Shown: positions 25,727 through 42,458 of the stretch, piece by piece
Layout: every line of letters starts with the position of its first letter
Numbering within the stretch: position 1 is the stretch's first letter
DNA from: a virus
Length of the DNA stretch: 44,145 bases
Direction: 5' to 3' (one strand)
Virus record (IMG/VR): IMGVR_UViG_3300048834_000255
Coordinates: 1 to 44,145 of that record
Translations under genes and position numbers: made by a program
Notes under the pieces: generated by a model
Databases searched by the model: none
The model's input: only the letters and a program-made list of their open reading frames with translations
What the model was told of the DNA's origin: nothing

Positions 25727-26226
25727 ATCTTTGTAATGAACTGCTTACCTGTTCCAGCATCGGTTATGTTCACAGCAGAACCGTCTTGGGAGGTTGATAT
25801 TTTAAAGGTATAACCGTCAGAAGATTCGTCTATTACATAGTAAGTGGTATTGGTTGTAATGCCAGCTGGGGCAGCATCACCCGTTAGAAAGTCCACATAG
25901 AATATAACCTGCTCGTCATTCGCAAACTTATTGCTAATGGTTCTGTCTGTGATGGTGATCTCATTGGTGGCTGGGTTGGCCGAATACCTAATATACTGGT
26001 TTGTTACACTGAAATTCTTGTCCCCTTGTTTGCCAAGCAGTATTGGTAGGTAGTGCGAGGAGGCTCCTGAAAAAGTTAAAACAACCTCTTCTGTTATTCG
26101 AGGGAAATATTCAGCTAAAACATCTAGACTTACTGGGTCTAGTGGAAGGGAGATTTGTTGCTGCTCTTTTTGTCTTTTCCACTCCTCAAGAGCTTCTATT
26201 CTTCTTAATAGTTCTTCATTATCCAT
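25723..26226 (-). CDS. Tail or adaptor accessory protein, 167 aa
   Basis: A short coiled-coil start (EELLRRIEALEEWKRQKEQQ) is followed by a beta-rich domain (TTYYVIDESSDGYTFKIS). I start at the ATG that shares an A with the preceding TAA, six codons inside the longest frame. Upstream GGAGGAG lies within the previous coding sequence, 11 bases from this ATG. A trimeric structural role is likely; no family is recognised. Confidence 0.55.
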   Translation of the reverse strand: MDNEELLRRIEALEEWKRQKEQQQISLPLDPVSLDVLAEYFPRITEEVVLTFSGASSHYLPILLGKQGDKNFSVTNQYIRYSANPATNEITITDRTISNKFANDEQVIFYVDFLTGDAAPAGITTNTTYYVIDESSDGYTFKISTSQDGSAVNITDAGTGKQFITKI

Positions 26227-26921
26227 TATGTATATCTCCTCCAAGTCCTACGAGAATGAGGTTTAATAGTTGTTTTATATTGAGGTGCCCAATTAGAGTA
26301 GAACTTAGACATGCCTCGCTCTAGACGTATTTTCTGGCCTAGCAAGAAATCTCTATGACTTTTATCTTGGACGAAATCTATGGATGCTGCATAAGAGAGT
26401 ATCCTATGATAAGGAGCTGCAAAACCTGGTGATGTTGAGGTGGCTGTTGGTGAGACGGCCGACACGTCTCTAGATAAAATAACAGCCATACCAGATGCCA
26501 TTGTGGTGAAACCCGTTCCCGGGGCTGGTAATAGTCTTATTTCAGCACCTTCAAGCATATACTTGATAGGTAGGCCTGTACCTCTTAAATATTCCTCAGG
26601 AGATAGAACCATATCCTCATAGGTAATTGGGGACAACTTAGACCAGTTTCCTTGGCTATCCTTAATTTCCACACCTCTTACTCTAAGAGCTGTGGTTGGT
26701 ATTAAATAGCTCGCAGAGGCATTAGCTATGGTTCTATAAGCCTTTGATGAGCCAGTATTATTTCTGTCATCGAAGGAATAGGTGGGGTCTGATTCCCAAA
26801 TAAGCGTAGCTACACCTTGGTATGCTACCTGCATATTTCTCATCTTATCTGCATCAGAATACGACCCTGAGGTCGAGCCACAGTGGAAGTCTACATCAGC
26901 TCTTAATTCACTCCAATTCAT
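26226..26921 (-). CDS. Head-tail adaptor / tail tubular-like protein, 231 aa
   Basis: It opens with the short helical NWSELRADVDFHCGS and NMQVAYQGVATLIWESDPTY. The middle is strand-rich and the end helical and basic (YAASIDFVQDKSHRDFLLGQ, SRRTWRR). The pattern fits the gp4/tail-tubular-A-like adaptors of short-tailed phages, which bind below the portal. Assignment is by order and shape, not by a signature. An extended -10 (TGGTATAAT) lies six bases before the ATG. Confidence 0.55.
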   Translation of the reverse strand: MNWSELRADVDFHCGSTSGSYSDADKMRNMQVAYQGVATLIWESDPTYSFDDRNNTGSSKAYRTIANASASYLIPTTALRVRGVEIKDSQGNWSKLSPITYEDMVLSPEEYLRGTGLPIKYMLEGAEIRLLPAPGTGFTTMASGMAVILSRDVSAVSPTATSTSPGFAAPYHRILSYAASIDFVQDKSHRDFLLGQKIRLERGMSKFYSNWAPQYKTTIKPHSRRTWRRYT

Positions 26922-26936: not shown

Positions 26937-27614
26937 TTATGAATTGTCAATCAGCTTTTTTATGTGATTAGCTGAACGAAGCAGTGAGTCAAATGTACCT
27001 GCATCAGACCAGAATCCGTCATAGTTATATACGGCATATCCCCCTTGCTTCAAACACCAGTTATTAAGATCCGTTACCTCTAACTCGCCACGAGCTGAAG
27101 GCTTTAAGAGCTTAATGTAATCAAAAATCTCCTTACCGTAATGGTAGATCCCTGTTACGGCAAGATTTGATTTAGGGTCTTTTGGTTTTTCAACAATAGT
27201 ACCCTCATAATAAACCCCGAACCTTTCAGGGTCAGAAACCTCCTTTAATACAAAGCCCTTGGTGTCTAGTCTTGGTGCGGGTGAAAAGATGTTATCCCCC
27301 AAAATAACAACGAACGTTTCGCCCACAAAATCTTCAGCCAAAGCTAAGGCTTGCGCGATACCCCCAGCCTCTTTTTGGACTCTATAAGTTAAATTTACAC
27401 CGTAATCTGAGCCGTCACCAAGAAAGTCGGCGAAATGACCTATATTCTCCCCTCCAGATATAAGCAGGATATCTTTAATTCCCATCTGTTTTAATGTCTC
27501 TACTGGATAGAGAACCATCGGTTTATTATAGATGGGTAAAAGATGTTTATTTGTCAGCAGGGTCAAAGGCCTAAGCCTTGTTCCATTACCACCAGCTAGA
27601 ATTACTCCGCGCAT
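26937..27614 (-). CDS. RfbA-like sugar-nucleotide pyrophosphorylase, 225 aa
   Basis: The signature VILAGGNGTRLRPLT (4-18) and NKHLLPIYNKPMV are those of glucose-1-phosphate thymidylyltransferase-type enzymes. ILGDNIF holds the metal-binding Asp, and ITxIVEKP-like and FWSDAGT motifs follow. It joins a sugar 1-phosphate and an NTP to give an NDP-sugar. At 225 residues it is slightly shorter than RfbA (about 290). No RmlB, C or D is present, so the NDP-sugar would be used directly or completed by host enzymes. It overlaps the cytidylyltransferase gene by 13 bases. Confidence 0.85.
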   Translation of the reverse strand: MRGVILAGGNGTRLRPLTLLTNKHLLPIYNKPMVLYPVETLKQMGIKDILLISGGENIGHFADFLGDGSDYGVNLTYRVQKEAGGIAQALALAEDFVGETFVVILGDNIFSPAPRLDTKGFVLKEVSDPERFGVYYEGTIVEKPKDPKSNLAVTGIYHYGKEIFDYIKLLKPSARGELEVTDLNNWCLKQGGYAVYNYDGFWSDAGTFDSLLRSANHIKKLIDNS

Positions 27615-28003
27615 TTTAATATTTTACTAGATGAATAACGTTTAGTTTTCTCCCCAGGTATTTTAACATCTATCTTGGTAAGCTTAAATTTCTTAGCAGC
27701 CTTTTCCTCCACTGGCTCAAACCCATCCCCAGAAGCTATGGCGTCATACTTAAACTTCTTAAGATTATCTGATGGATCTAGAGAGTCTTGAGCTATGACC
27801 TCTACATTACCAATGGCTATCCCCACTGTTTCTAGGATGTATTTCCTGTCTTTAAATGGGACTATCTCGTCCTTATACCCCTCAAGCGCGTTGGCGGTAA
27901 GAAGACCAACCGTTACAAAACCCTCCTTAATAAGCTCTTCAAGAACCTTTATATGACCTACAGTGAGCACTCTACAGCTCATTGGGAAATATATCTCTTT
28001 CAT
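27602..28003 (-). CDS. Small cytidylyltransferase, probably phosphonate-activating, 133 aa
   Basis: It is a nucleotidyltransferase of the (H/T)xGH superfamily: TVGH at 14-17 and RYSSSKI at 122-128 (the ISSTxI-like site). It resembles TagD/GCT-type enzymes in size. Cytidylyltransferase domains of this type occur beside PEP mutase in hydroxyethylphosphonate pathways, for example fused to it in Fom1. With the genes upstream, I infer CMP-hydroxyethylphosphonate formation from CTP. Choline- or glycerol-phosphate substrates cannot be excluded. It overlaps the dehydrogenase gene by four bases. Confidence 0.7.
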   Translation of the reverse strand: MKEIYFPMSCRVLTVGHIKVLEELIKEGFVTVGLLTANALEGYKDEIVPFKDRKYILETVGIAIGNVEVIAQDSLDPSDNLKKFKYDAIASGDGFEPVEEKAAKKFKLTKIDVKIPGEKTKRYSSSKILKCAE

Positions 28004-28779
28004 GTTAATGCTCTCATTATATCCATTTCCGTGACCTCATATGGATAGTCTAATAACTTTGGATTGTTGATAGCTTCCTTGGCTATCTTTTTACGACTGA
28101 ATTTATATTGTGGAAGTAGTGGTTTAACAAAGGATTTAATCTCAAAGCCAGCCTTCTCAGCAAAATAACTAAGAGACATACCACAGGCTATGCCATGAGG
28201 TATGCCATAAATGTCTGTTAGAGGATAAGACACAGCATGGCAGACGTTGGTGGGGGTTATGTTTATGGCTCTACCAGAGAGGTTGGCGGCTATCAGCATA
28301 TCCATTCTAGCCTTTGTGTCTTCTGGATCTTTAACGCATTTATAGAGGCTTTTAATAACCAACTCCATGGCCGCTGTGGCATAAGAAATACTTTCTAAGT
28401 TAGCCTTGGTAGACCATATAACTTCTAGTGACTGGGATAAGGCATCTAGGCCAGAACCTATGGTGTGCTCTCTTGGTAGTGTTACGAGTAGATTTGGATC
28501 TAGGATAGAACTATCTGGGATATACCTTTCATCTATAAACGTTTTCTTTTTTCCATCTACAGTTAAGACAACATACTTTGTGGCCTCGCTGCCAGTACCT
28601 CCAGTTGTTGGAATAGCTGTGTGCTTAAGATCATATCGTTTGGCTACCCACTTACCTACATCTATAGTCGAGCCACCGCCTCTTGAGATTATTTCAGTTG
28701 TGCCGACGGGGACAACAACACTATTAGCGTACTCAATCGTTGGGTTGGCAGGAACATGTTCAATTATGAAACGTGACAT
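28000..28779 (-). CDS. Iron-type alcohol dehydrogenase, phosphonoacetaldehyde reductase candidate, 259 aa
   Basis: GGGSTIDVGK (34-43) is the nucleotide-binding motif, and PTTGGTGSEATKY (57-69) is a group III ADH hallmark. Metal ligand positions read Asp112 (GLDALSQ), Gln116 in place of the usual His, His181 (CHAVSYPL) and His195 (IPHG). The protein is about 120 residues shorter than normal. The first strands of the Rossmann domain are missing (it begins near ANPT), as is part of the helical C-terminus. By context it would reduce phosphonoacetaldehyde to 2-hydroxyethylphosphonate. Whether the shortened form is active is open. Confidence 0.75.
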   Translation of the reverse strand: MSRFIIEHVPANPTIEYANSVVVPVGTTEIISRGGGSTIDVGKWVAKRYDLKHTAIPTTGGTGSEATKYVVLTVDGKKKTFIDERYIPDSSILDPNLLVTLPREHTIGSGLDALSQSLEVIWSTKANLESISYATAAMELVIKSLYKCVKDPEDTKARMDMLIAANLSGRAINITPTNVCHAVSYPLTDIYGIPHGIACGMSLSYFAEKAGFEIKSFVKPLLPQYKFSRKKIAKEAINNPKLLDYPYEVTEMDIMRALT

Positions 28780-29258
28780 TTCTTCATAAAATTAACTGTT
28801 ATTTCCTCTGGGCTAATTTTAGGCCTACCCAAATCAGGTCTTGACCCTAGCTCTACATCAATAACTCTGAAGTTATATGTCTTCGGAAGATACCTTCTTA
28901 TGTCATCAAACGATGTTGGTTGGCCACCAGTTGAGTCGTGGGCGCTATTATTTAAGATGTAGACATAAAGATTCCTAGGGAACAACTTCATGTATGTCGC
29001 CAAGCTACCCATACCCATCAAGAAGTTGCCGTCCCCAAGTAGGCAGATAACCTTCCTGTTGGTGTTTTTGGCAACTCCTATAGCTACCCCCAAGGCTCTT
29101 CCCATTGCCCCAATAAGGATAAAGTCATCGGCAGGTTCACCTCTTTTTTCACGCAACTCATACAATTCTCTACCAATCTTGCCGTTGCAAGCTATAACCA
29201 AGTCTTCCTTCCTTAAGGTATCTAAGATTAGATTTATTGTTGATTCTCTACTAGCCAT
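28764..29258 (-). CDS. Phosphonopyruvate decarboxylase, TPP-binding (beta) subunit, 164 aa
   Basis: The TPP motif GDG (75-77) to NN (103-104) is intact. GAMGRALGVAIG and HDSTGGQPT are typical of phosphonopyruvate and sulfopyruvate decarboxylases. It carries only the C-terminal half of the usual 380-residue enzyme; the N-terminal half is the next gene upstream. I start at MASRES, which overlaps the alpha gene's stop; an ATG 12 bases upstream is an alternative. The reaction is phosphonopyruvate to phosphonoacetaldehyde and CO2, which pulls the unfavourable PEP mutase step forward. Confidence 0.85.
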   Translation of the reverse strand: MASRESTINLILDTLRKEDLVIACNGKIGRELYELREKRGEPADDFILIGAMGRALGVAIGVAKNTNRKVICLLGDGNFLMGMGSLATYMKLFPRNLYVYILNNSAHDSTGGQPTSFDDIRRYLPKTYNFRVIDVELGSRPDLGRPKISPEEITVNFMKKCHVS

Positions 29259-29571
29259 GTATTTCTGCATTTATCTGGTAAAGTTCCAATAATTGCTTGA
29301 GGAAGTCTGTTACCATCTTGTGCTGTGGCTCATCCTCTCTTACAAACAAATGTAATTCTATTGGGATTCCTTGTAGTTGGGATAGAGTTATGATCGTATC
29401 AAGGGCATTCAATAAGCCATTTTCTCCCATTGCAACCTTGCAAGTTCTGCCTGTAACTAAGTATTCACCACAAGCCAAGGCTACGGCTTCAGCTTCATCA
29501 GTAGCCACAAAATAGTCCTCGTGGTTTAGCCAGTCCTTCATCTTGCTAGTTGGTACTATGTAAGTGCTCAT
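29251..29571 (-). CDS. Phosphonopyruvate decarboxylase, PYR-domain (alpha) subunit, 106 aa
   Basis: DEAEAVALACGEYLVTG (the catalytic Glu of the PYR domain), MGENGLLNALDTI and REDEPQHKM correspond to the N-terminal half of phosphonopyruvate/sulfopyruvate decarboxylases. It is short compared with other alpha subunits (about 160-170). It overlaps PEP mutase by four bases and the beta gene by eight. The two halves must assemble to place TPP between them. Confidence 0.8.
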   Translation of the reverse strand: MSTYIVPTSKMKDWLNHEDYFVATDEAEAVALACGEYLVTGRTCKVAMGENGLLNALDTIITLSQLQGIPIELHLFVREDEPQHKMVTDFLKQLLELYQINAEIHG

Positions 29572-30314
29572 TTCCCTACAATGTTAAATATCTCTTCTAC
29601 AGAACTTAATTCTACTTCTTCACCATTTAAGAATTTCTCCATAGCTCTAAGAGATGCTCTTAAGAGGTGGTTGGCATCAATGACTATGTCGAATGGATGG
29701 ACGTCTGGTAGTCTGTAAGTGGTTGGTACCGCTATTAAGGTTATGCTTGGGTGATTTTTCATAAGCTCCTCACCAACTTCCATAACCTCTTTGGCATCTA
29801 CCTTTTCCTTAGAGTGAACCATTATCCCATCAGCCCCAGCATCTATATAGGCCTCCGCGCGAGCGATGGCCTCAAACTTTGACCTCTTGGCAATCAATGA
29901 CTCAAGTCGGGCGAATATCTTCATGCCCTTACAATTCTGCTTAGCCACCCTAATCTTATCTCTGAACACATCCACATCTTCTAGTGGTTGAACATTCTCT
30001 TCCAACAATGAGTTCTTCTTAGCCCCCTTCTTATCTTCCATGATTATGGCTGTGGCTCCAGCTTTTTCAAACCACCTAATAATGAAGGGAAGGTGTTCTA
30101 TCTGGCCTCCATTATCTACATCCACGATTATAGGCTTGTCGGTGATTCTTGAGATTTCCTCCACCAAATCCACCCTCTCCTTGAGAGGTACCAATTCATT
30201 GTCTGGTAGCCCCTTTATAGCGGCGTGAGTAAGGGATGAAACCCAGACAGCGTCATAGTTTGATTTGTCTGCCAAAAGAGCTGAAAGGCCTGAATGTACT
30301 TCGATTACTCTCAT
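29568..30314 (-). CDS. pepM: Phosphoenolpyruvate mutase, 248 aa
   Basis: EDKKGAKKNS at 93-102 matches the PEP mutase signature EDK(X)5NS exactly, which separates it from isocitrate-lyase-family hydrolases. VDVDNGG (64-70) is the Mg-binding Asp region of the family, and the TIM-barrel order (WVSSLTHAA, IIVDVDNG, ARLESLIA, GADGIMVHSK, IVIDANHLLRA) is complete. It rearranges PEP to phosphonopyruvate, the C-P bond-forming entry step for nearly all natural phosphonates. It is about 45 residues shorter than typical, mainly at the ends. It lies between LicD-like and decarboxylase genes, all overlapping by four bases. Confidence 0.9.
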   Translation of the reverse strand: MRVIEVHSGLSALLADKSNYDAVWVSSLTHAAIKGLPDNELVPLKERVDLVEEISRITDKPIIVDVDNGGQIEHLPFIIRWFEKAGATAIIMEDKKGAKKNSLLEENVQPLEDVDVFRDKIRVAKQNCKGMKIFARLESLIAKRSKFEAIARAEAYIDAGADGIMVHSKEKVDAKEVMEVGEELMKNHPSITLIAVPTTYRLPDVHPFDIVIDANHLLRASLRAMEKFLNGEEVELSSVEEIFNIVGK

Positions 30315-30937
30315 TTTATTGATACGTTATTAACCTCATCTCTAGTAATAGATCCCTTAGCGTGCATCTCTGGATAAGTGTCCCCGTGCCTTCTATCTGT
30401 CTTATCTTTCCAGTTGTCGAAATAGGTAAAGGCTAAGTAATCTTCGATTGGGCCTGGAACAAGGTACTTCTTTTTGTTTAATTTGATTGTGTCTAGCTTC
30501 TCGTAGAACCTCGTAGGAGAGGCTATAAGCTTCATAGCGCCGAGTTTGGGTGTGCAGACGTACTCTGGGCCATGTTGCGGACAATCCTCAGCCTTAAAGA
30601 AGAAGATGGTGAATTTGAAGTTACGCTCACAAACTATAATACCTGTCTCAGAATCTCCGTTGTAACCTATCTCAGCTGGCTCCATACGGCCAAAGACATT
30701 GAAAGCTATTTGCTGAGGTTCAAAACCCAAGTCGTACAAACTCCAACCAATCGCCTTGCGCGTCTTGAGGTCGATAGGATCAATGACAGCGAGATCAATG
30801 TCATTGTCATCTGGAAGAAAGTCACCGTCCCTGTGGAAGCCAAGAGCGACGCCGTAAACAACCAAAAACCTAACGCCATACCTCTCAAAAACCTGTCCAA
30901 TATCCTCAAGGTCTTTAATTCTTTTGTCATTTGTCAT
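30311..30937 (-). CDS. LicD-family phosphotransferase, 208 aa
   Basis: YGVALGFHRDGDFLPDDNDI and DLAV show the LicD/fukutin nucleotidyltransferase fold with its metal-binding Asp cluster (DDNDID, 43-48). The later KKYLVPGPIEDYLAFTYF fits the family's C-terminal part. LicD enzymes move phosphocholine from CDP-choline to sugars. Here the neighbours make a phosphonate and a cytidylyltransferase, so I infer transfer of hydroxyethylphosphonate from its CMP form to a glycan. It overlaps PEP mutase and NeuB genes by four bases each. Confidence 0.8.
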   Translation of the reverse strand: MTNDKRIKDLEDIGQVFERYGVRFLVVYGVALGFHRDGDFLPDDNDIDLAVIDPIDLKTRKAIGWSLYDLGFEPQQIAFNVFGRMEPAEIGYNGDSETGIIVCERNFKFTIFFFKAEDCPQHGPEYVCTPKLGAMKLIASPTRFYEKLDTIKLNKKKYLVPGPIEDYLAFTYFDNWKDKTDRRHGDTYPEMHAKGSITRDEVNNVSIK

Positions 30938-32037
30938 ATCATTCCAAATTTTATTGGAACATCGGCAGGTATATTTTTAACGGCTATACTTCCTACAACC
31001 ATATCCTTATGGCTAGGCCAAAGCCCAGTTCCAGGTCTTTTAAACGTTATCATTTCTTCTGTAATAACGGTGTCCTTTGGTATTGGCACCTTAGACACAA
31101 TGCTTCTTTTATCGAACTCTCTTGTGTGTTTTTCACAATCAAACACTACCCTAGTACCAGAGCCAAGCATGTTCTGGGCAGCCCTTACCCCTTGAACCAA
31201 GGCTTTTAATTCTGGTGGATCTACTGATAGCCAATGGTCAGCAGTAGTTTTCATGGTCTTATCAAGAGTGAAGTGTTTTTCTATTACAATAGCTCCAAGA
31301 GCTGAGGCTATAAATGGAGCAGCTAACCCTAATGTATGGTCTGAGAAACCAACCTGGCATTCTGGAAATGTATTTCTGAGGGATTTTATAACATTTAGAT
31401 TGGCATCATCGTTATCTGTAGGGTAATTCAATATACAGTGCAAAATAACAATTTTATCGTTACCTTCATCTAAGATGGCCTCTACTGACTCTATGATCTC
31501 TTTCATTGTAGAAGCCCCTGTAGAAAGGAAGATAGGCTTGCCGAATCTAGCCACATGGCGAAGGAATGGAATATAAGACATGTCAGATGAAGCTATCTTA
31601 AAAGCCTTCATACCCATCTCATTGAGCTTATCTGCTGCTTCAATAGAGAATGGAGTAGATAAAAACTCAATACCAACTGACTCACAATGCTTTATTAGTT
31701 CTGGGTACTTCTCATAAGGAAACCCCCCCAAGACTTCATAGGCCTGATGTTGGTTCATGCCATCAGCACTTTCATGTTCCCAAAATTTTGGAGTACCCTT
31801 ACACACAAGCTCGTCAGCTGTGTAGGTCTGGAACTTAATAGCATCTGCGCCTGCTTCAGCCGCAGCCTCTATGGCTTTCTTAGCTAATTCAATATCGTTA
31901 CCGTGATTAACACCAAACTCTGCGATGACGTAAGGTTTGTCTAGGGTTTTATTCCCAATCTTTATGTGGCGGTGTTTTTGAAATGATAAATCCTTCCCAT
32001 CTTTTTCTTTCCTCTTCATTCTTTGTGATATTTCCAT
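30934..32037 (-). CDS. neuB: NeuB-family nonulosonic acid synthase, 367 aa
   Basis: The TIM barrel reads IAEFGVNHGNDIELAKKAIE, AGADAIKFQTYTADELV, GIEFLSTPF, KIASSDMSYIPFL, TGASTMKEI, ILHCILNYPT, VGFSDHTLG and IEKHFTLDKTMKTTADHWLS, followed by an SAF/antifreeze-like domain (RSIVSKVPIPKDTVITEEMI). The family condenses PEP with a 6-carbon sugar to give sialic, legionaminic or pseudaminic acid; I cannot tell which. The longest frame overlaps the GT2 gene by 89 bases. A second Met seven residues in is also possible. It shares PEP as substrate with PEP mutase. Confidence 0.85.
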   Translation of the reverse strand: MEISQRMKRKEKDGKDLSFQKHRHIKIGNKTLDKPYVIAEFGVNHGNDIELAKKAIEAAAEAGADAIKFQTYTADELVCKGTPKFWEHESADGMNQHQAYEVLGGFPYEKYPELIKHCESVGIEFLSTPFSIEAADKLNEMGMKAFKIASSDMSYIPFLRHVARFGKPIFLSTGASTMKEIIESVEAILDEGNDKIVILHCILNYPTDNDDANLNVIKSLRNTFPECQVGFSDHTLGLAAPFIASALGAIVIEKHFTLDKTMKTTADHWLSVDPPELKALVQGVRAAQNMLGSGTRVVFDCEKHTREFDKRSIVSKVPIPKDTVITEEMITFKRPGTGLWPSHKDMVVGSIAVKNIPADVPIKFGMI

Positions 32038-32620
32038 TATGTTGTCTATAGTTATAAAGTGGCAAAGGAATACGGAAACTATCGAAATTTCTTATATATC
32101 TTCTTAAAAGATCGAAGTCCTCAGCATTTCTAAGCTTCGGATCATACAAGCCTAAAGATTCCATGTATGACTTCCTAAACATTATTCCTGCTCCATGTCT
32201 GAATAGCAAGTCTAAGGTGTTGATAACTACCCTCTCCATTGGGTTTTCCTCAGCATCAACTCTTATATGGTCACTATAAGTGAAGCCAATTCCCTGGTTG
32301 GCCAACAATATCTCTGAATGAAACAGGAGACAGTTTTCTTTTATATAGTCATCTGAGTCAACTCTTATAATAAAGGAGCCTCTAGCGGCCTTTATGCCGA
32401 TATTAGAAGCCTCTGCAACGCCTACATTGTTTTCTAGAAATATAGGGACTACTGGATAAGATTTAATTACTTCTTTAGAGTTATCTGTAGAGGCATCATC
32501 AACAACAATAATTTCATATCTATCCTTTGGTAGAGACTGTTTTAGGCAACTTCTTATGGCCCGGCCAACAAACTTCTCTCTATTATAATTCGTTATGATA
32601 ACACTTACGTCTATTGCCAT
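31949..32620 (-). CDS. GT2 glycosyltransferase, 223 aa
   Basis: The GT-A fold reads DVSVIITNYNREKFVGRAIR, IIVVDDASTDNS, FIIRVDSDDYIKE (DSDD metal site) and NAEDFDLLRRY (catalytic ED). It is short, ending soon after the core, and soluble. It overlaps NeuA-like and NeuB genes. It probably transfers one sugar of the glycan built by this module. Confidence 0.8.
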   Translation of the reverse strand: MAIDVSVIITNYNREKFVGRAIRSCLKQSLPKDRYEIIVVDDASTDNSKEVIKSYPVVPIFLENNVGVAEASNIGIKAARGSFIIRVDSDDYIKENCLLFHSEILLANQGIGFTYSDHIRVDAEENPMERVVINTLDLLFRHGAGIMFRKSYMESLGLYDPKLRNAEDFDLLRRYIRNFDSFRIPLPLYNYRQHNGNITKNEEERKRWEGFIISKTPPHKDWE

Positions 32621-33186
32621 TGTTTTAAAGCTTTTATGTAATCTTGGTAATTGTGGATATCCACACTTGGGTCAACAATTAAAGCCTCTGGGTGAGGATC
32701 AAATGGGTCTTGATAATGTTCAAGCAACCACTTGCTAATCCCCCAGACAGAACCATATAAAGGATATTTCCTGTCGTGGTAGGTGAGGCCCTTATCCACT
32801 GGATGGCACGTCATCACCTCACTAAATCCTTGAGCCATTAAAGTCTTAACCTTATTTATTATGTCAGAAGAGACTGTTGGACTACAAGCCTGGACAGCTA
32901 CGATTGAATCTATATCGCCCATTTCTTTTAGGGCGTGTTGATAGACAGGTATGTTTGGTGTATCTCCACACAAGTCTTCATCTCTCCAGATCGGTTCTGC
33001 TCCAGCCATGCGGGCTATGTTCAATATTTCTTGGTCATTTGAACTAACAAAAGTCTTATCGAATATCTTTATACATTTTTCGACATTCCACATGAACATA
33101 GGTTTCCCATGAAACTCCTTTAGATTCTTACCCTCAAGCCTTCGGCTGTCTGATTTAGCCAATATCAATCCTACTGATTTGTTCAT
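32611..33186 (-). CDS. NeuA-like CMP-nonulosonate synthetase, 191 aa
   Basis: The N-terminal LILAKSDSRRLEGKNLKEFH is the CTP-binding region of the cytidylyltransferase 3 (NeuA) family. TFVSSNDQEI, PIWRDEDLCGDT and VAVQACSPTVSSDIINK follow in the expected order. The usual LxAxxxSxRLxxKN motif is slightly altered (AKSDSRRLEGKN). It activates the NeuB product with CMP. It overlaps the aminopeptidase-like gene by 32 bases. Confidence 0.8.
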   Translation of the reverse strand: MNKSVGLILAKSDSRRLEGKNLKEFHGKPMFMWNVEKCIKIFDKTFVSSNDQEILNIARMAGAEPIWRDEDLCGDTPNIPVYQHALKEMGDIDSIVAVQACSPTVSSDIINKVKTLMAQGFSEVMTCHPVDKGLTYHDRKYPLYGSVWGISKWLLEHYQDPFDPHPEALIVDPSVDIHNYQDYIKALKQWQ

Positions 33187-34363
33187 CTTTAATTATTTTG
33201 TCGAATATCTCGTAAAGTGGCTCAAATGGCATCTCGAAGTGACATGCCAACTCGGCCAAACTTTTCTTACCATCCACGGTGTAGAACAAATAATCAAAGT
33301 TAAGGTTCACAACCTTAGCTGGTGACTGGATGTTATACCTAGATCTCATTAACGGGCCAAAGAAATTCCTTTTTGGAATATAATCTCTTTCGTAGATATC
33401 TATAATGCTTCTAATCAAATCACCAGTTTCTTCTATCTTCTGGTAGTCGATCCTATCTGGGGTGTCTTTATCGGTATGATATTCAGGGTAAGGCCACCTA
33501 GTAAGTAGGATTCCTGGAATGCGGAGTTGTGGGTCATTGAATGCCGTCTCATCTGAGCCTATAGATGTGCGGAACTTACCCTTACGATACTGTTTACCTG
33601 CCATCTGAAGGGCGCAATGAGCAACCGCATTTATCCTGTGGCTTTCGTCAAAAGACTTTTGCATCATGATAGAGTTGTCGTTCCCACAAATATCTACAGC
33701 TATTACAAATTCTACATTGCTTAAGTCTTCATTGTAGATATAGGCCTGAGAACCTATAGTCTCTGGGCAAAAGACAATCTTAACAGTGTGCTTACACTTA
33801 AGTTTATTAACTAGATCCATTAAACAAACTACCCCAGATAAATTATCATTAGCCTGATGTGGGTGATCTAGATGAGCGAATAGAAGAATCTCCCTATCAC
33901 TTTCTCCCTTAATTGTGTGAACCCCATACTTCAATATCCCATCCTTAAACTCAGTGTCTATAAAGACCTCATAATCACCCTTAGCCAACTTCTTCTTAGG
34001 AGCAGAAAAACCCCATTCTCTATCGTAGAATTTGAATGTATAAGGTGTTGCATCTCCTTCTTCTGGAGTAAATATATGCTTACTTAACTCTTCTTCAGAT
34101 ACAACCCCCTTAAATGGAGCTGAATAAACCACCAATGATAGAGGGTTCTTGGAGTAATCATAGATTTTCTTTCCTTTATATTTTACCCAGGCTTCTCTAA
34201 CTATCCATTCATCTGGTATAGCCCAAGTTCCGAGATCGGCTCCTTTAGGTATTTCTTTGATTTCTAACCCAATAAGAGTATTGATATACGCCAGAGCGTT
34301 ATCGTAACCAGGCCCGACCAGTTGCCGATCAAACTTAAACAGAGTCTCTAGGGTTTCTTTCAT
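33155..34363 (-). CDS. DUF4910-type zinc aminopeptidase-like protein, 402 aa
   Basis: It has an M28-like metal site: LFAHLDHPHQANDNLSGVVC (His and bridging Asp), CPETIGSQAY (Glu), VDICGND (Asp) and PEYHTDKDTP (His). The N-terminal part includes an inserted beta domain, and the end looks like a winged helix (LAELACHFEMPFEPLYEIFD). DUF4910 proteins are often found in surface polysaccharide loci next to nonulosonic acid genes; their substrate is not established. A deacylase or amidase acting on a sugar-amino-acid intermediate is possible. Confidence 0.75.
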   Translation of the reverse strand: MKETLETLFKFDRQLVGPGYDNALAYINTLIGLEIKEIPKGADLGTWAIPDEWIVREAWVKYKGKKIYDYSKNPLSLVVYSAPFKGVVSEEELSKHIFTPEEGDATPYTFKFYDREWGFSAPKKKLAKGDYEVFIDTEFKDGILKYGVHTIKGESDREILLFAHLDHPHQANDNLSGVVCLMDLVNKLKCKHTVKIVFCPETIGSQAYIYNEDLSNVEFVIAVDICGNDNSIMMQKSFDESHRINAVAHCALQMAGKQYRKGKFRTSIGSDETAFNDPQLRIPGILLTRWPYPEYHTDKDTPDRIDYQKIEETGDLIRSIIDIYERDYIPKRNFFGPLMRSRYNIQSPAKVVNLNFDYLFYTVDGKKSLAELACHFEMPFEPLYEIFDKIIKDEQISRIDIG

Positions 34364-34779
34364 AGTGTAGTTATGTAGACTTTAAAATCTGGTATTTCTC
34401 TTATCTCAGCTCCTAGAGACTCTAGAAATGCTTTAGTAGATGGTCTCACAGAATGGCCGAAAATGAAAGTCCCCTTTGTGCCCTCATGTTTAGCCTTAAG
34501 ATAAATGCCCATTGAATCCTTAGACCAGGAATAATAGACATCTGCTTGGGGTAATGGGTAAAAGTAACTATTGTTGCAGCATATTTCGTAGCCTCGGCTG
34601 GCGGCAAAATTAGCCCACTCAAGTTCTTCTTCAATGCCTATAACTCTTTTGGCGTATTTAGACATAGCCTCCATAAAGCTCCCGCCACCACAGCCAATAT
34701 CACAAACTACTTTGTCTTTAATAACATCCTTGATTAACTCAGCCACCTCTGGAGGTGTCTGGCCTTCTGGTATTCTCAT
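34360..34779 (-). CDS. Small SAM-dependent methyltransferase, 139 aa
   Basis: VVCDIGCGGGSFMEAMSKYA is motif I of class I methyltransferases, and RVIGIEEELEWANFA gives the acidic residue that binds SAM ribose. The rest is minimal: no clear substrate domain follows, and the protein is only two thirds of usual size. It may modify a sugar. It overlaps both neighbours by four bases. Confidence 0.75.
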   Translation of the reverse strand: MRIPEGQTPPEVAELIKDVIKDKVVCDIGCGGGSFMEAMSKYAKRVIGIEEELEWANFAASRGYEICCNNSYFYPLPQADVYYSWSKDSMGIYLKAKHEGTKGTFIFGHSVRPSTKAFLESLGAEIREIPDFKVYITTL

Positions 34780-35654
34780 AAAGCTTTTTTAATTAAGTTA
34801 ATTGTATCTAACCCTAGCCCGCCCTCACCAATGACAACTTCACGTCTTTCATCTTGAAGATCATCTGGGTTTTCCAGATGAAAGATAATATCTTTCTCAA
34901 GGTCTTTAAGGTTACTTTTACAAGAACCCTTAGAGACTACTCTCCTATAGGTCTTGTAACGTTCGTCCCCATTGCATGGTTTTGGCTTCCACTCAGACAT
35001 GATGACAACAGGGATATCCATGGCTTGTGCGATAAGTTCAAACGTAGACTCAGAAATACCCACGACCAAGTCTGTTTTTGAGAGCAACTCCTTACAAGTT
35101 CTTAGGTGTTCACTATCATTACGATTGGTTTGAATTGGGTTGTCATAGTCTTTTGGGTCATGACTTTCTATTATCTTTGTTATGACATTTACCCCATGGT
35201 TACTTTGAAGGTCTCTGAGGGCGTCTCTTGTTTTGAAGTTTTCTTCGACTTCTTTGTCCCAGTGTTCTGGGCAGAAAACGATATTGATACCTTCGTGCCC
35301 CTCTCGTTTGGGTAGATCTTGAAGAATACTTGTTCCGATGACCCGTATCTTTTGTGCATCTTGGTTAGCATCCACAAGAGACCTTTTATCGAACTCTCCC
35401 CAGACCAGGAGCGCATCGCTTTGGATTTTTTCATTGAAGGGTGGGTAGTATTTAGATGTTCCTCTTCTCCCATGTTGTAAGGTTACCACCTTCTTACCTA
35501 ACGAGCGAGATAGGTCTATAACACTTCTCTCAAAGGAGTTTACATCGTTCCACAACAAAACAGCCTCAGAATCGTCTATTTTGTCCACAATCTCGAAATA
35601 CTCCTCAAATCCTTCAAAGATACTATTGTGTCTTGAGGGAATATAGATTTTCAT
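34776..35654 (-). CDS. GT-B-like transferase (QHG motif), 292 aa
   Basis: It has a GT-B pattern: KIYIPSRHNSIFEGFEEYFE and KKVVTLQHGRRGTSKYYPPF in the first half, then VFCPEHW and DLVVGISESTFELIAQAMDI (an acceptor/nucleotide site like that of GT-B and 2-epimerases) in the second. The QHG motif is common in capsule and CDP-glycerol-type transferases. The substrate is unknown. It overlaps both neighbours by four bases. Confidence 0.65.
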   Translation of the reverse strand: MKIYIPSRHNSIFEGFEEYFEIVDKIDDSEAVLLWNDVNSFERSVIDLSRSLGKKVVTLQHGRRGTSKYYPPFNEKIQSDALLVWGEFDKRSLVDANQDAQKIRVIGTSILQDLPKREGHEGINIVFCPEHWDKEVEENFKTRDALRDLQSNHGVNVITKIIESHDPKDYDNPIQTNRNDSEHLRTCKELLSKTDLVVGISESTFELIAQAMDIPVVIMSEWKPKPCNGDERYKTYRRVVSKGSCKSNLKDLEKDIIFHLENPDDLQDERREVVIGEGGLGLDTINLIKKAL

Positions 35655-36763
35655 CTCTCTTGATTAAGAACCTTGAGACCTCCTGGTCTCTGTAGAGCCA
35701 GTTCCCAGTCTATGCCGATAGCATCTATGGAACGATTTTTTAAGACCCATTCATGCTGCTCTTTAGCCAATTTATGTCTGAACTGTGAATCTACAATAAG
35801 CTTCTCCAACTTGTTATACCAATCCTTGTGAGTGTTCTTTGCTCTATAAGTTACTTCATCTGAGTAAGGAAGAACATCAGAGGCGATAGTTGGTGTGCCA
35901 ACAGCTGCATATTCGTAGAACTTAACACAAGACTTCCCCTGGTTAAAGGTATTGTCTTCTAGAGGAGCGATGCCTATGTCGAAATTAACCTTAGAGAGTA
36001 TGGTCGGATGAAGTTCAGGTGGCATAAACGGTATATGAACTCCCTTTACTGCCTTAATTTGATCGTAGAAATCTAGGGCGGACTTGTAATAAGGATTCTT
36101 CTCAGGCATCAAGTTCGCGTGCATGTATCTGTTGTACATGTACATTGCTGACTCAAGAGGCTCTCCAACTAGACCGTAGATAGCGAATGTGAAGTCGTGC
36201 TTCTGATGTAGATCAGCGATGACGCCTCCAATTAACTGGAGGTCTTTCCAGTGTGAAGCAGCACCCATATAACCAATAATAAGGTCTTGGTTACCTTCTG
36301 CTCTTGGTCGGTAAACCTCTGGATCTACTCCATTAGGACAGAGGTGAATATCTTTCTTGAAATGTTTCTTGAACTTCTTAGCCAAAACCTTTGATGGCGT
36401 GATAACTACATCAGCCTCTCTAATTTGGCCTTCGTATTGGTCTTTTAGAGCGTTTGAGACCAGGGCAGATGGATTATCCTTAGCTACCTGCCAAAAATCA
36501 TCATCCATGTCGTAGACGATTCTTTTACCAAGCTTTTTAAATTCCCTCATCCACTTAATTGGGTCATAGGCATTTGGGTAGGTACGACCAAAGACAACGA
36601 CATCTGGCCATTCCAAAAGTGATTGTGGAAACTCTGAACCTATAGAAACCTGCTTTACAGCATGTCCACGTTTCATTAAGGCCTCAGCTGGAGTTTGGAT
36701 ACGGTGCCACCATATGCCGTGGATAAAGGCATCTGGTCTATCCGTTATGAACATTACTTTCAT
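35651..36763 (-). CDS. GT4-family glycosyltransferase, 370 aa
   Basis: The GT-B fold reads KVMFITDRPDAFIHGIWWHR at the start, YDMDDDFWQVA, EADVVITPSKVLAKKFKK, CPNGVDPEVYRP, LIIGYMGAASHWKD and VKFYEYAAVGTPTIASDVLP, with the Glu-x7-Glu-like region near the end (KSCVKFYEYAAVG). The order is that of GT4 retaining transferases. It probably starts or extends the glycan made by the module. Confidence 0.8.
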   Translation of the reverse strand: MKVMFITDRPDAFIHGIWWHRIQTPAEALMKRGHAVKQVSIGSEFPQSLLEWPDVVVFGRTYPNAYDPIKWMREFKKLGKRIVYDMDDDFWQVAKDNPSALVSNALKDQYEGQIREADVVITPSKVLAKKFKKHFKKDIHLCPNGVDPEVYRPRAEGNQDLIIGYMGAASHWKDLQLIGGVIADLHQKHDFTFAIYGLVGEPLESAMYMYNRYMHANLMPEKNPYYKSALDFYDQIKAVKGVHIPFMPPELHPTILSKVNFDIGIAPLEDNTFNQGKSCVKFYEYAAVGTPTIASDVLPYSDEVTYRAKNTHKDWYNKLEKLIVDSQFRHKLAKEQHEWVLKNRSIDAIGIDWELALQRPGGLKVLNQER

Positions 36764-37077: not shown

Positions 37078-38046
37078 CTAGCCTGTGAAGGCAGTTGGCA
37101 TAGAGAGGTTCATACCTCTCTGTCTGTTCTTGGTTGTTACGGTAGAACCGAATACAGTCCAAGTGATGAAGTTTGCACCAAGCATGTCATCTTTCATGCG
37201 GATTTCGAGCGCAGGTGCGCGCTGGAGAACTACGTCAATAGTGTTCTTCCTACCAATGTAATTGGCACGTCCTGGGGTTGTACCAGAAGCGTTTGCTCCT
37301 GAAAGACCACCAATTATTCCGTTACCTGCTGCTGGAGCGATAGCGGACAAGTTGCCTGAAGGCAAGTTGTTGGAGATGTAGATCTGGAAGCCCATGAAGT
37401 CACCAGCGTAACCGTTTCTCAAGGTTGCATCTGCAACATTGAAACCGACGTTAGCAGCCTTTACTTCAATGTAAGATGCTACCTTTGGGGTAACAACAGC
37501 ACACCAGTCACCCATTTCCTCAACGTTATTCTCTCTGAGGAACTTTCTAGCTCCTGCAAAAATGTTAATAACGTTTCCTGAACCTGCTGATACAGGCTTA
37601 CCGTTGGTAGTTGAAATACCAAGGTCTCTTTCGTCTACTGGCATGAAACCGTCAGTACCAGTGATATTGGCCAAAACGTGTTGGTCAATAGCATCCTTTA
37701 GTCTGAAAGCGGCTTCTGTTGCCAATTCTCTAGCTTGTTCAACGTTGGTCTGGAGTCTCTGAACATCGTCAACGTAGAAGGTGACGTGCTTGTATGTAGA
37801 GACGACCAAGTTGTCAAACTGCCAATCCTGCGCTGTCGCAGAAATGGTTGTGCCAGGTGTGTAGTTCTGTGCAACTAAGTCACCGAAGCGAGGGATGTGG
37901 ACAGTGTCCGCATTCTTCACTGTGTCAGAGAGACGCATGTTTGCAATCTCAAGAGCTACAAGTGACTTGTACAAAGGAACCTGCACCATGGTTGACCATA
38001 ACTCTGGTGTTATAGCCGAAACATCGTTTGTGATTACTTGTGTCAT
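37078..38046 (-). CDS. Major capsid protein, 322 aa
   Basis: Position (after the scaffold, with portal and terminase upstream) and sequence support the call. The N-terminal arm and helix read PELWSTMVQVPLYKSLVALE, the core holds YKHVTFYVDDVQRLQTNVEQ and AAFRLKDAIDQHVLANITGT, and the end ITWTVFGSTVTTKNRQRGMN reads like the end of HK97-fold capsid proteins. It has no long delta domain; the scaffold is a separate gene. Local GC is above average (31 of 60 in one line counted), possibly reflecting codon bias of an abundant protein. It starts eight bases after the scaffold stop. Confidence 0.85.
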   Translation of the reverse strand: MTQVITNDVSAITPELWSTMVQVPLYKSLVALEIANMRLSDTVKNADTVHIPRFGDLVAQNYTPGTTISATAQDWQFDNLVVSTYKHVTFYVDDVQRLQTNVEQARELATEAAFRLKDAIDQHVLANITGTDGFMPVDERDLGISTTNGKPVSAGSGNVINIFAGARKFLRENNVEEMGDWCAVVTPKVASYIEVKAANVGFNVADATLRNGYAGDFMGFQIYISNNLPSGNLSAIAPAAGNGIIGGLSGANASGTTPGRANYIGRKNTIDVVLQRAPALEIRMKDDMLGANFITWTVFGSTVTTKNRQRGMNLSMPTAFTG

Positions 38047-40910: not shown

Positions 40911-42458
40911 TCAAGCCCATTGAAACCGTTTCTTCCTTTGGGGTTGGGTTTTAGCTGCTCGTATCTCAGCAACTTTCTTGGGTGACATATCCCAGAATGC
41001 CAAAAGAGTGGACATGATATCGTCATCGTGGAATCCCTTAGAGGCAGAAGCTCCCTGCATTGTGGCTTCATTAGTCCAAACAAAAGACTTCATTTCTTCA
41101 ATGGTTCCTCTATCATATATCTTTGGAATGCCTTGTCTTAGAAGAGACTGGAAATGGGTAATAAGAGCCTCTTTGGTTGACCATGAGGTAACAAAGCCTA
41201 ATTTTTCAGTCTCCACCTTTTCCTTGTAATCCATCTGTCGTCTACGGTATATTCTTAAATCCTTAATGTGTTCAAGGAGGGAAGATTTATTCACCTCAGG
41301 GATAACTAATGGTTTGTTGTAAGTGTAGTAAAGAAATTTAACTTTGTCGGCCAACTCTGGGACGGTGACATAACCATTGAATCTAGCAACTTTTTTACCA
41401 GAACCAGATACCACAGATATGGAAGAAGGGTCAGTAACACCCTCTGATGGGTCAACACCCATTTGGTAGGTTTCTGTTGGGCTTGGTCGTTCATATATCT
41501 CACAACCTTCCTTTTTCTCAATAGGAGGTTTTGATAAAGATTCCATGTGTCTGATGTGCTCCTGGGCAAACACTGTACCCTTTAGGAGAATATCAGTAGT
41601 CCACTCCCCCCGTACAAATCTTCTAACATAAGATTCATCCATGCCCAACTGTTTCCTAATATAATCCCAAGGAAGGTTGGGGTTGTGCATCATTGAAGAT
41701 TCATAAAGGGCTGAATTGTTATCTTCGTCAGGAATCCATTGGTTATCATCAAGCTTCTTTTTCAATTTAAATTGATGGTAAGCCCAGAAGTTAGCGGGAT
41801 TGCAGTCTGAATTACCTTGTCTGAAAGGCACCTCTTTTCTTCTGAGACGCGAGTTCAGAACCTCAATAACAGATAACTCCACTTCCTCTAACTGGTCGAT
41901 GAAATAAGCACCAAGATTCAAAGACTTGAGCTTCTGTTGGGCCTTCTTAATATCCACCACGGTGCCCGATTGCATGGCATCAAGACCGAATAAAACAATT
42001 TGTGAACCATTATCAATATTTATAAGACCATCCTTAACGCGGTGTTCAAACCAGGAAGACGGCATGAGGGCAAATAATTCTGGGAGAACGGCACGGTCGA
42101 TGTCGGAGAGGGTCTTGCGTCCCATCAACACCCTATTCCCAGGGAAACATTTACAAAGAAGGATCAGTTTAATGTAGAGGGCTGTGGATTTACCAGAACC
42201 GTAACCACCAGAGTTCAGACAATAATCGGATGTAAAGTCGGATATGAAACGGGATTGGACAGAGAAGCCATCGACTTTGGCGGATTCATATTCCTCGGCG
42301 CATTTGAGGGCGAATTCTTCTGGCCAGCCGGATTTTAGGGCTTCCTTAATAAAGTCTTCCTTAGAGTAATTAAAACGATAATCCTTACCGTTGAGGGTGA
42401 TTTGTTCAATCTTTCTACCATCTAAGATGGCACGGCCTATTTGTTCAAAATCATCCAT
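40911..42458 (-). CDS. terL: Terminase large subunit, 515 aa
   Basis: Walker A GGYGSGKST (84-92), Walker B AYFIDQLEE (184-192), and a RNase H-like nuclease with GVDPSEG and GFHDDDIMSTLLAFWDM carrying the acidic residues. It powers DNA packaging and cuts concatemers. The protein is of ordinary length. It overlaps the small basic gene upstream by 22 bases. The packaging mode (cos or headful) cannot be read from it. Confidence 0.9.
   Translation of the reverse strand: MDDFEQIGRAILDGRKIEQITLNGKDYRFNYSKEDFIKEALKSGWPEEFALKCAEEYESAKVDGFSVQSRFISDFTSDYCLNSGGYGSGKSTALYIKLILLCKCFPGNRVLMGRKTLSDIDRAVLPELFALMPSSWFEHRVKDGLINIDNGSQIVLFGLDAMQSGTVVDIKKAQQKLKSLNLGAYFIDQLEEVELSVIEVLNSRLRRKEVPFRQGNSDCNPANFWAYHQFKLKKKLDDNQWIPDEDNNSALYESSMMHNPNLPWDYIRKQLGMDESYVRRFVRGEWTTDILLKGTVFAQEHIRHMESLSKPPIEKKEGCEIYERPSPTETYQMGVDPSEGVTDPSSISVVSGSGKKVARFNGYVTVPELADKVKFLYYTYNKPLVIPEVNKSSLLEHIKDLRIYRRRQMDYKEKVETEKLGFVTSWSTKEALITHFQSLLRQGIPKIYDRGTIEEMKSFVWTNEATMQGASASKGFHDDDIMSTLLAFWDMSPKKVAEIRAAKTQPQRKKRFQWA

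Follow-up and report, generated by a model that had tools for sequence, protein, structure and literature searches.

A predicted phosphonate-to-glycan route encoded in the late operon of a phage

Introduction

Bacterial phosphonyl tailoring of the Pnt type (PMC6697681) and the fosfomycin route (Fom1, Fom2, FomC) are the closest described counterparts of the locus analysed in the current work, a block of six genes (30937-27602, minus strand) in IMG/VR virus record IMGVR_UViG_3300048834_000255, whose 44145 bases are together referred to here as the window. With regard to the bacterial systems, the EDKX5NS signature has been described as specific to phosphoenolpyruvate (PEP) mutase (Ppm, here PepM), the PF01467 domain of Fom1 makes the cytidine monophosphate ester of 2-hydroxyethylphosphonate (CMP-HEP), and the PntC enzymes specific for 2-aminoethylphosphonate (AEP) belong to PF12804 (PMC6697681), while marine bacteria have been proposed to display phosphonoglycoproteins (PMC8931226). 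The phage block shares with Pnt systems its logic, enzyme families, PepM signature, nucleotidyl activation and a nearby LicD-like gene, the genes for PepM, nucleotidyltransferase and transferase being located together. It differs in its late-operon position, in its separate and shortened enzymes (cellular PepM being mostly fused to its nucleotidyltransferase) and in the replacement of the transaminase by a dehydrogenase. It shares with the fosfomycin route the predicted intermediates 2-hydroxyethylphosphonate (HEP) and CMP-HEP as well as a PF01467 cytidylyltransferase matching Protein Data Bank (PDB) entry 5x3d, whereas no Fom3 or Fom4 step was recognised in the phage set, and the predicted pathway ends in a LicD transfer rather than in an antibiotic. 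Considered as a whole, the phage probably encodes a compact and complete phosphonyl-tailoring route leading from PEP through HEP to a glycan, with a virion protein as the most likely acceptor.

No paper on phosphonate biosynthesis by phages was found in a non-exhaustive search of open-licence literature. Among 50,697 phage records, and with mislabelled or bacterial-looking matches set aside, a PepM-like gene is present in Vibrio phage Va2 alone (MW073017). This cultured phage carries PepM-like (QPB08588, 7899-9203) and phosphonopyruvate decarboxylase (PPD)-like (QPB08585, 3098-4198) genes, but these are located amid nucleotide metabolism rather than in a structural operon, the PepM loop is one residue longer (EDKX6NS), and no LicD/cytidylyltransferase module was recognised in the stretch viewed. 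The PEP-mutase-like protein of Va2 also possesses an extra C-terminal domain.

Enzymes of the predicted route

The block consists of six minus-strand open reading frames (ORFs), each starting with ATG and overlapping its neighbours by 4-20 nt, in agreement with the original prediction, which was made from the letters of the sequence; its GC content is the same as that of the phage. The predicted route would proceed from PEP to phosphonopyruvate (PepM), then to phosphonoacetaldehyde (two-subunit PPD), to HEP (dehydrogenase) and, with cytidine triphosphate, to CMP-HEP (cytidylyltransferase), from which the LicD-like protein would move the phosphonate to a sugar.

PepM (29568..30314, 248 amino acids (aa)) contains EDKKGAKKNS, the exact EDK(X)5NS signature originally reported, and matches PF13714 (1.9e-40) and TIGR02320 (7e-70), the latter scoring best of all models, ahead of those for PalA and PrpB, with 235 bits against an equivalog cut-off of 319.55 for a profile longer than the protein. 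Residues matching the active-site lining of the mussel enzyme, whose roles we take to be those generally assigned to them, are retained. In the tree, PepM falls together with bacterial enzymes bearing EDKX5NS, those of Pelagibacteraceae among them, and a 100/99 branch separates this group, which includes 37 other signature-bearing rows, from PrpB, MICL and PalA; PepM therefore joins the EDKX5NS mutases, apart from PrpB-type lyases, the grouping on which the original prediction had been staked. The solved mussel and Streptomyces mutases are placed on the far side of this branch with long branches of their own, so that the deep branching order is tentative. These results support the prediction that the product of 30314-29568 is a PEP mutase generating phosphonopyruvate. 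The signature is likewise present in loci L007-L023 (numbering of the current work), while ten further viral PEP-mutase-family proteins (L024-L033) were rejected as mutases because they lack it. Their loop reads EDNPSPKRCS or EDNxxPKxNS, several adjoin PPD-like genes, and they perhaps catalyse a different carbon-phosphorus (C-P) or lyase reaction.

The two-subunit PPD with an intact GDG...NN motif, as first proposed, is recovered as a PYR (alpha) subunit (29251..29571, 106 aa; TIGR03297 2e-13) and a subunit binding thiamine pyrophosphate (TPP) (beta; 28764..29270, 168 aa; TIGR03297 5e-38), the latter also matching the beta chain of a solved two-subunit enzyme (9iz3, 7.5e-13). Compared to full-length PPD, the two subunits retain EPQH, the TPP motif and the region of the catalytic Glu, and in the window also DLGRP, while the linker and C-terminal segments are absent; the halves score 49.8 and 131 bits versus the 312.5 set for the whole.

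The third activity is assigned to a compact metal-dependent alcohol dehydrogenase (28000..28779, 259 aa versus the usual ~355-380 aa), a predicted phosphonoacetaldehyde reductase whose best NCBIfam model, TIGR03405 (phosphonate iron-type dehydrogenase PsrA, 1e-43), is consistent with the iron-type dehydrogenase originally named, and whose AlphaFold2 model is very confident (pLDDT 95.4). It exhibits the fold, the GGGS and GTGSE motifs and the D/H(Q)/H/H metal site of its family. Its best solved relative, by sequence and by fold alike, is the sulfoacetaldehyde reductase BkTauF (6jko), in which Asp192, Gln196, His261 and His275 bind Zn, Gln196 being a ligand not typical of this family, and Thr257 and Phe265 are located at the substrate site (PMC6616044). 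The phage enzyme places D112, Q116, H181 and H195 at these metal positions, so that its second ligand, too, is Gln where the family usually has His, and T177 and Y185 at the substrate positions; D112, H181, H195, T177 and Y185 are invariant in 14 phage homologues, while Q116 varies. Sulfoacetaldehyde and phosphonoacetaldehyde would be close analogues; BkTauF is ~120 residues longer and serves sulfonate catabolism, the phage enzyme being predicted to act in phosphonate biosynthesis.

The cytidylyltransferase (27602..28003, 133 aa; PF01467 6e-6), a predicted CTP:HEP cytidylyltransferase, contains TVGH, in accordance with the (H/T)xGH motif noted initially. Its sole PDB sequence match is 5x3d (4e-8), an entry labelled phosphoenolpyruvate phosphomutase that we take to be the CMP-HEP-bound Fom1 domain. 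The phosphotransferase (30311..30937, 208 aa) is named LicD-like because no Pfam family matches it at 0.001; NF045866 does so at its N-terminal motif (3e-8). Its AlphaFold2 model (pLDDT 86.7) retrieves FKRP chains as its first 13 PDB fold matches (best E 4.5e-6), and the LGxxR...DxDIDxx motif is present. It therefore resembles LicD/FKRP phosphotransferases in fold and DxD motif, these enzymes acting on sugar acceptors with donors of the CDP type, but differs from them in its missing Pfam match and in its donor, which is predicted to be a phosphonate. A single ORF of L013 (12351-13439) encodes the cytidylyltransferase fused to a domain of the LicD type (LicD hidden Markov model, 1.8e-25). Profile, structural or comparative evidence thus bears out all of the families originally assigned, LicD through NF045866 and the FKRP fold rather than through Pfam.

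Recurrence in other phages and selection

When a single protein was used as query against IMG/VR no matches were obtained, while an alignment query retrieved 27 viral contigs. The module, consisting of signature-bearing PepM, both PPD halves and the cytidylyltransferase, is present in ten other contigs (L007-L016), nine of which also carry the dehydrogenase; L007 and L008 represent virtually one phage and are counted as such. The original view that a full C-P pathway in the late operon of a phage is unusual is upheld, yet the window is not unique in this respect, a partial set also occurring in Va2. In the window's own group (L009, L010, L012, L014 and L015) the order is MCP (major capsid protein) - g73 - GT4 (family 4 glycosyltransferase) - g292 - DUF4910 - NeuA - (GT2, family 2 glycosyltransferase) - NeuB - LicD, continuing with PepM - PpdA - PpdB - (ADH, the dehydrogenase) - CyTase (cytidylyltransferase) - late gene, with small insertions. 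The more distant L007, L008 and L011 (portal 29-30% identical) have this late gene as well; the module precedes it and has glycosyltransferases, a DegT aminotransferase and a GDP-mannose dehydratase as neighbours; glycosyltransferase and sugar-nucleotide genes are found near the module in the relatives examined.

Between the window and L007, L009, L010, L012 and L015, four-fold sites differ by ~53-78% and are thus saturated, whereas second codon positions differ by 14-45%, which indicates that all genes, the shortened ones too, are under purifying selection; gene lengths and catalytic residues are conserved across independent contigs. The recurrence of the module in independent contigs, flanked by the same structural genes, shows that the block did not arise by misassembly of host DNA into a single contig, one of the two grounds for refutation that had been named with the original prediction.

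Exchange of the donor module behind LicD

A search with the MCP yielded 75 loci, 18 of which cover the full MCP-to-late-gene interval (a set that includes near-duplicate contigs). LicD is present in 15 of these 18 and PepM in two; where PepM is absent, LicD is usually followed by a methyltransferase-like protein of 170-200 aa that would use S-adenosylmethionine (SAM). Sister phages thus keep the glycan operon and LicD without the phosphonate genes and carry a methyltransferase in the slot, so that the phosphonate supply looks like a swappable module that would feed the LicD step of phage glycan decoration within a conserved operon. For the same reason the presence of LicD was rejected as proof of a phosphonate.

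The residue preceding the LicD DxD motif is D, G, E or T in phages with a phosphonate module in this slot, and W, Y or H in those with a methyltransferase module. Since L067 and L063 (His) nest inside the phosphonate group of the tree (97/93), at least two independent residue changes are required. L119 breaks the rule, having Gly and no PepM but its own TagD-like cytidylyltransferase, and the sequence of L109, with a Gly-type LicD, ends directly after this gene. The apparent tracking of the donor module by this residue is accordingly regarded as a lead, not as proof. It is tentatively suggested, with somewhat less than even confidence, that virion proteins of this phage group bear a nonulosonic-acid-type glycan capped by a C-P headgroup for which phage enzymes carry out the whole synthesis, and that phages exchange this headgroup when the donor module following LicD is replaced and the active site of LicD changes to match.

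Some of these glycan cassettes also encode a B12-binding radical SAM enzyme (L009 4052-5557 and L014 3878-5383, also L108, L109, L116, L117 and L119), which occurs with and without PepM. It was rejected as a Fom3-like mark of HEP, being present without PepM in the full intervals L116 and L119 and having HpnJ and ApyD, not P- or HEP-methyltransferases, as its best models.

Product, acceptor and alternative explanations

HEP had been preferred to AEP from the outset, a preference strengthened by the dehydrogenase, whose active site resembles that of TauF, and by a cytidylyltransferase of the Fom1 type. AEP, made with a host transaminase, or another C2 phosphonate, the dehydrogenase then having a different role, is an unlikely product: AEP is found on bacterial surfaces more often than any other phosphonate (PMC6697681), but the dehydrogenase accompanies nine of the ten other modules, the cytidylyltransferase is of the HEP and not the PF12804 type, and searches of the record for aminotransferases of classes I/II, III and V gave none, in line with the original claim. 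It is very unlikely that the block is a relic of host DNA in decay or without function, the shortened PPD and dehydrogenase having no activity. The PPD halves and dehydrogenase are indeed shorter than cellular homologues, and the dehydrogenases of L007 and L009 are shorter still (161-168 aa), but the saturated synonymous and conserved amino-acid divergence of the recurring module argues against decay as well as misassembly, and the dehydrogenase model is a confident, complete fold. Phages are known to hypermodify DNA, and a DNA modification or a free, antibiotic-like small molecule, with the glycan genes as bystanders, could be envisaged. PF01467 cytidylyltransferases and PepM do contribute to phosphonate antibiotics (Fom1, PhpF; PMC6697681), but this explanation is extremely improbable, as LicD adjoins PepM and is fused to the cytidylyltransferase in L013, glycosyltransferase and sugar-nucleotide genes accompany the module, and no export or base-modification gene was recognised in the cassette by family searches.

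The more serious alternative retains the chemistry but places the phosphonate on a host surface glycan (O-antigen, capsule or a lipid-linked intermediate), where it would block superinfection or protect the cell. Lipid-linked units facing the cytoplasm can serve as substrates of LicD enzymes, and the GT2 gene has GtrB-like PHROG matches. Bacterial phosphonate and LicD pathways, moreover, decorate cell surfaces (PMC6697681, PMC8931226). Against this, family searches and hydropathy revealed neither a membrane protein nor a flippase, polymerase or ligase among the cassette genes, and every full-interval relative has the late structural-operon position, from which expression would come at a time when a surface change is late. 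No clear transmembrane helix was apparent from hydropathy, the two highest windows falling in the soluble folds of NeuB and PpdB. A host acceptor is consequently considered a second, rather doubtful possibility, while the position of the operon among head and tail genes and its soluble proteins favour a cytoplasmic acceptor, most likely a glycan on a virion protein.

Several points weigh against the proposed HEP-to-glycan route on virion proteins: the acceptor is deduced from gene position, LicD need not be dedicated to phosphonate since it occurs without PepM, all block proteins fall below NCBIfam equivalog cut-offs, being divergent and shortened, the dehydrogenase is absent from the stretch covered in L011, and the NeuB- and NeuA-type genes at 30934-33186 lack the upstream sugar-epimerase steps, leaving the sugar-precursor pathway incomplete in the window. 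The computational evidence bears directly on the order of the genes, their families and folds, the residues of the active sites, the recurrence of the module and purifying selection, and from it the substrates, the identity of the product, the acceptor and the benefit are inferred. If the proposed route is correct, C-P bond formation would join the functions that viruses themselves encode, phages would become candidates for a natural source of high-molecular-weight phosphonate, and the phage would possess a chemically distinctive way of coating virions or altering host surfaces. Owing to their unusually small size, the enzymes would also be of use as minimal forms of PPD and metal-dependent alcohol dehydrogenases, and since the module is defined and comprises five or six genes (~3.3 kb), the question is amenable to direct testing.

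The surrounding glycan cassette and further observations

In addition to what was originally observed, the phosphonate block forms the 3' half of a glycan cassette that extends from ~36981 to 26937 in a minus-strand late operon that comprises TerL (40911-42458), a portal-like protein, the MCP (37078..38046; phrog_267 8e-35) as upstream cassette border, the cassette and, from 26921 down, late genes. The first of these (26226..26921, 231 aa, minus strand) is conserved and represents the downstream border in all relatives with the full interval. The sugar chain would be built by the adjoining genes, all on the minus strand: a GT-B glycosyltransferase (35651..36763, 370 aa; PF13439 1e-6), a conserved cassette protein kept in sister phages and without family match (34776..35654, 292 aa), a small SAM methyltransferase-like protein (34360..34779, 139 aa; weak matches, best NCBIfam 5e-5), a DUF4910/M28 aminopeptidase-like protein of glycan loci (33155..34363, 402 aa; PF16254 3e-50), a NeuA/PseF-like CMP-sugar synthetase (32611..33186, 191 aa; PF02348 9e-16, TIGR03584 1e-17), the GT2 (31949..32620, 223 aa; PF00535 1e-28), a NeuB-type nonulosonate synthase with SAF domain (30934..32037, 367 aa; PF03102 1e-82, TIGR03569 5e-100) and, beyond the block, an RmlA-like sugar-1-phosphate nucleotidylyltransferase (26937..27614, 225 aa; TIGR01207 1.5e-61, phrog_3980). 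In many sister phages the NeuB-like protein is shorter (~230 aa) and lacks the SAF domain.

Two faecal 'Bacteriophage sp.' records (MT837901 and MT836947; L002 and L003) were rejected as phage precedents on account of bacterial-looking neighbours (YidC-like, transaminase), and they resemble bacterial phosphonate loci; the match in Acinetobacter phage MD-2021a was rejected as PrpB in a bacterial-type lld/prp region. In the records of L007, L008, L011 and L016 (G001, G002, G005 and G010), terminase matches cross in-frame stops, which may reflect a frameshift, an intron-like insertion or joined pieces. L106 contains g73, GT4, g292, DUF4910 and NeuA twice within an 8.3 kb contig, perhaps because two strains were assembled together.

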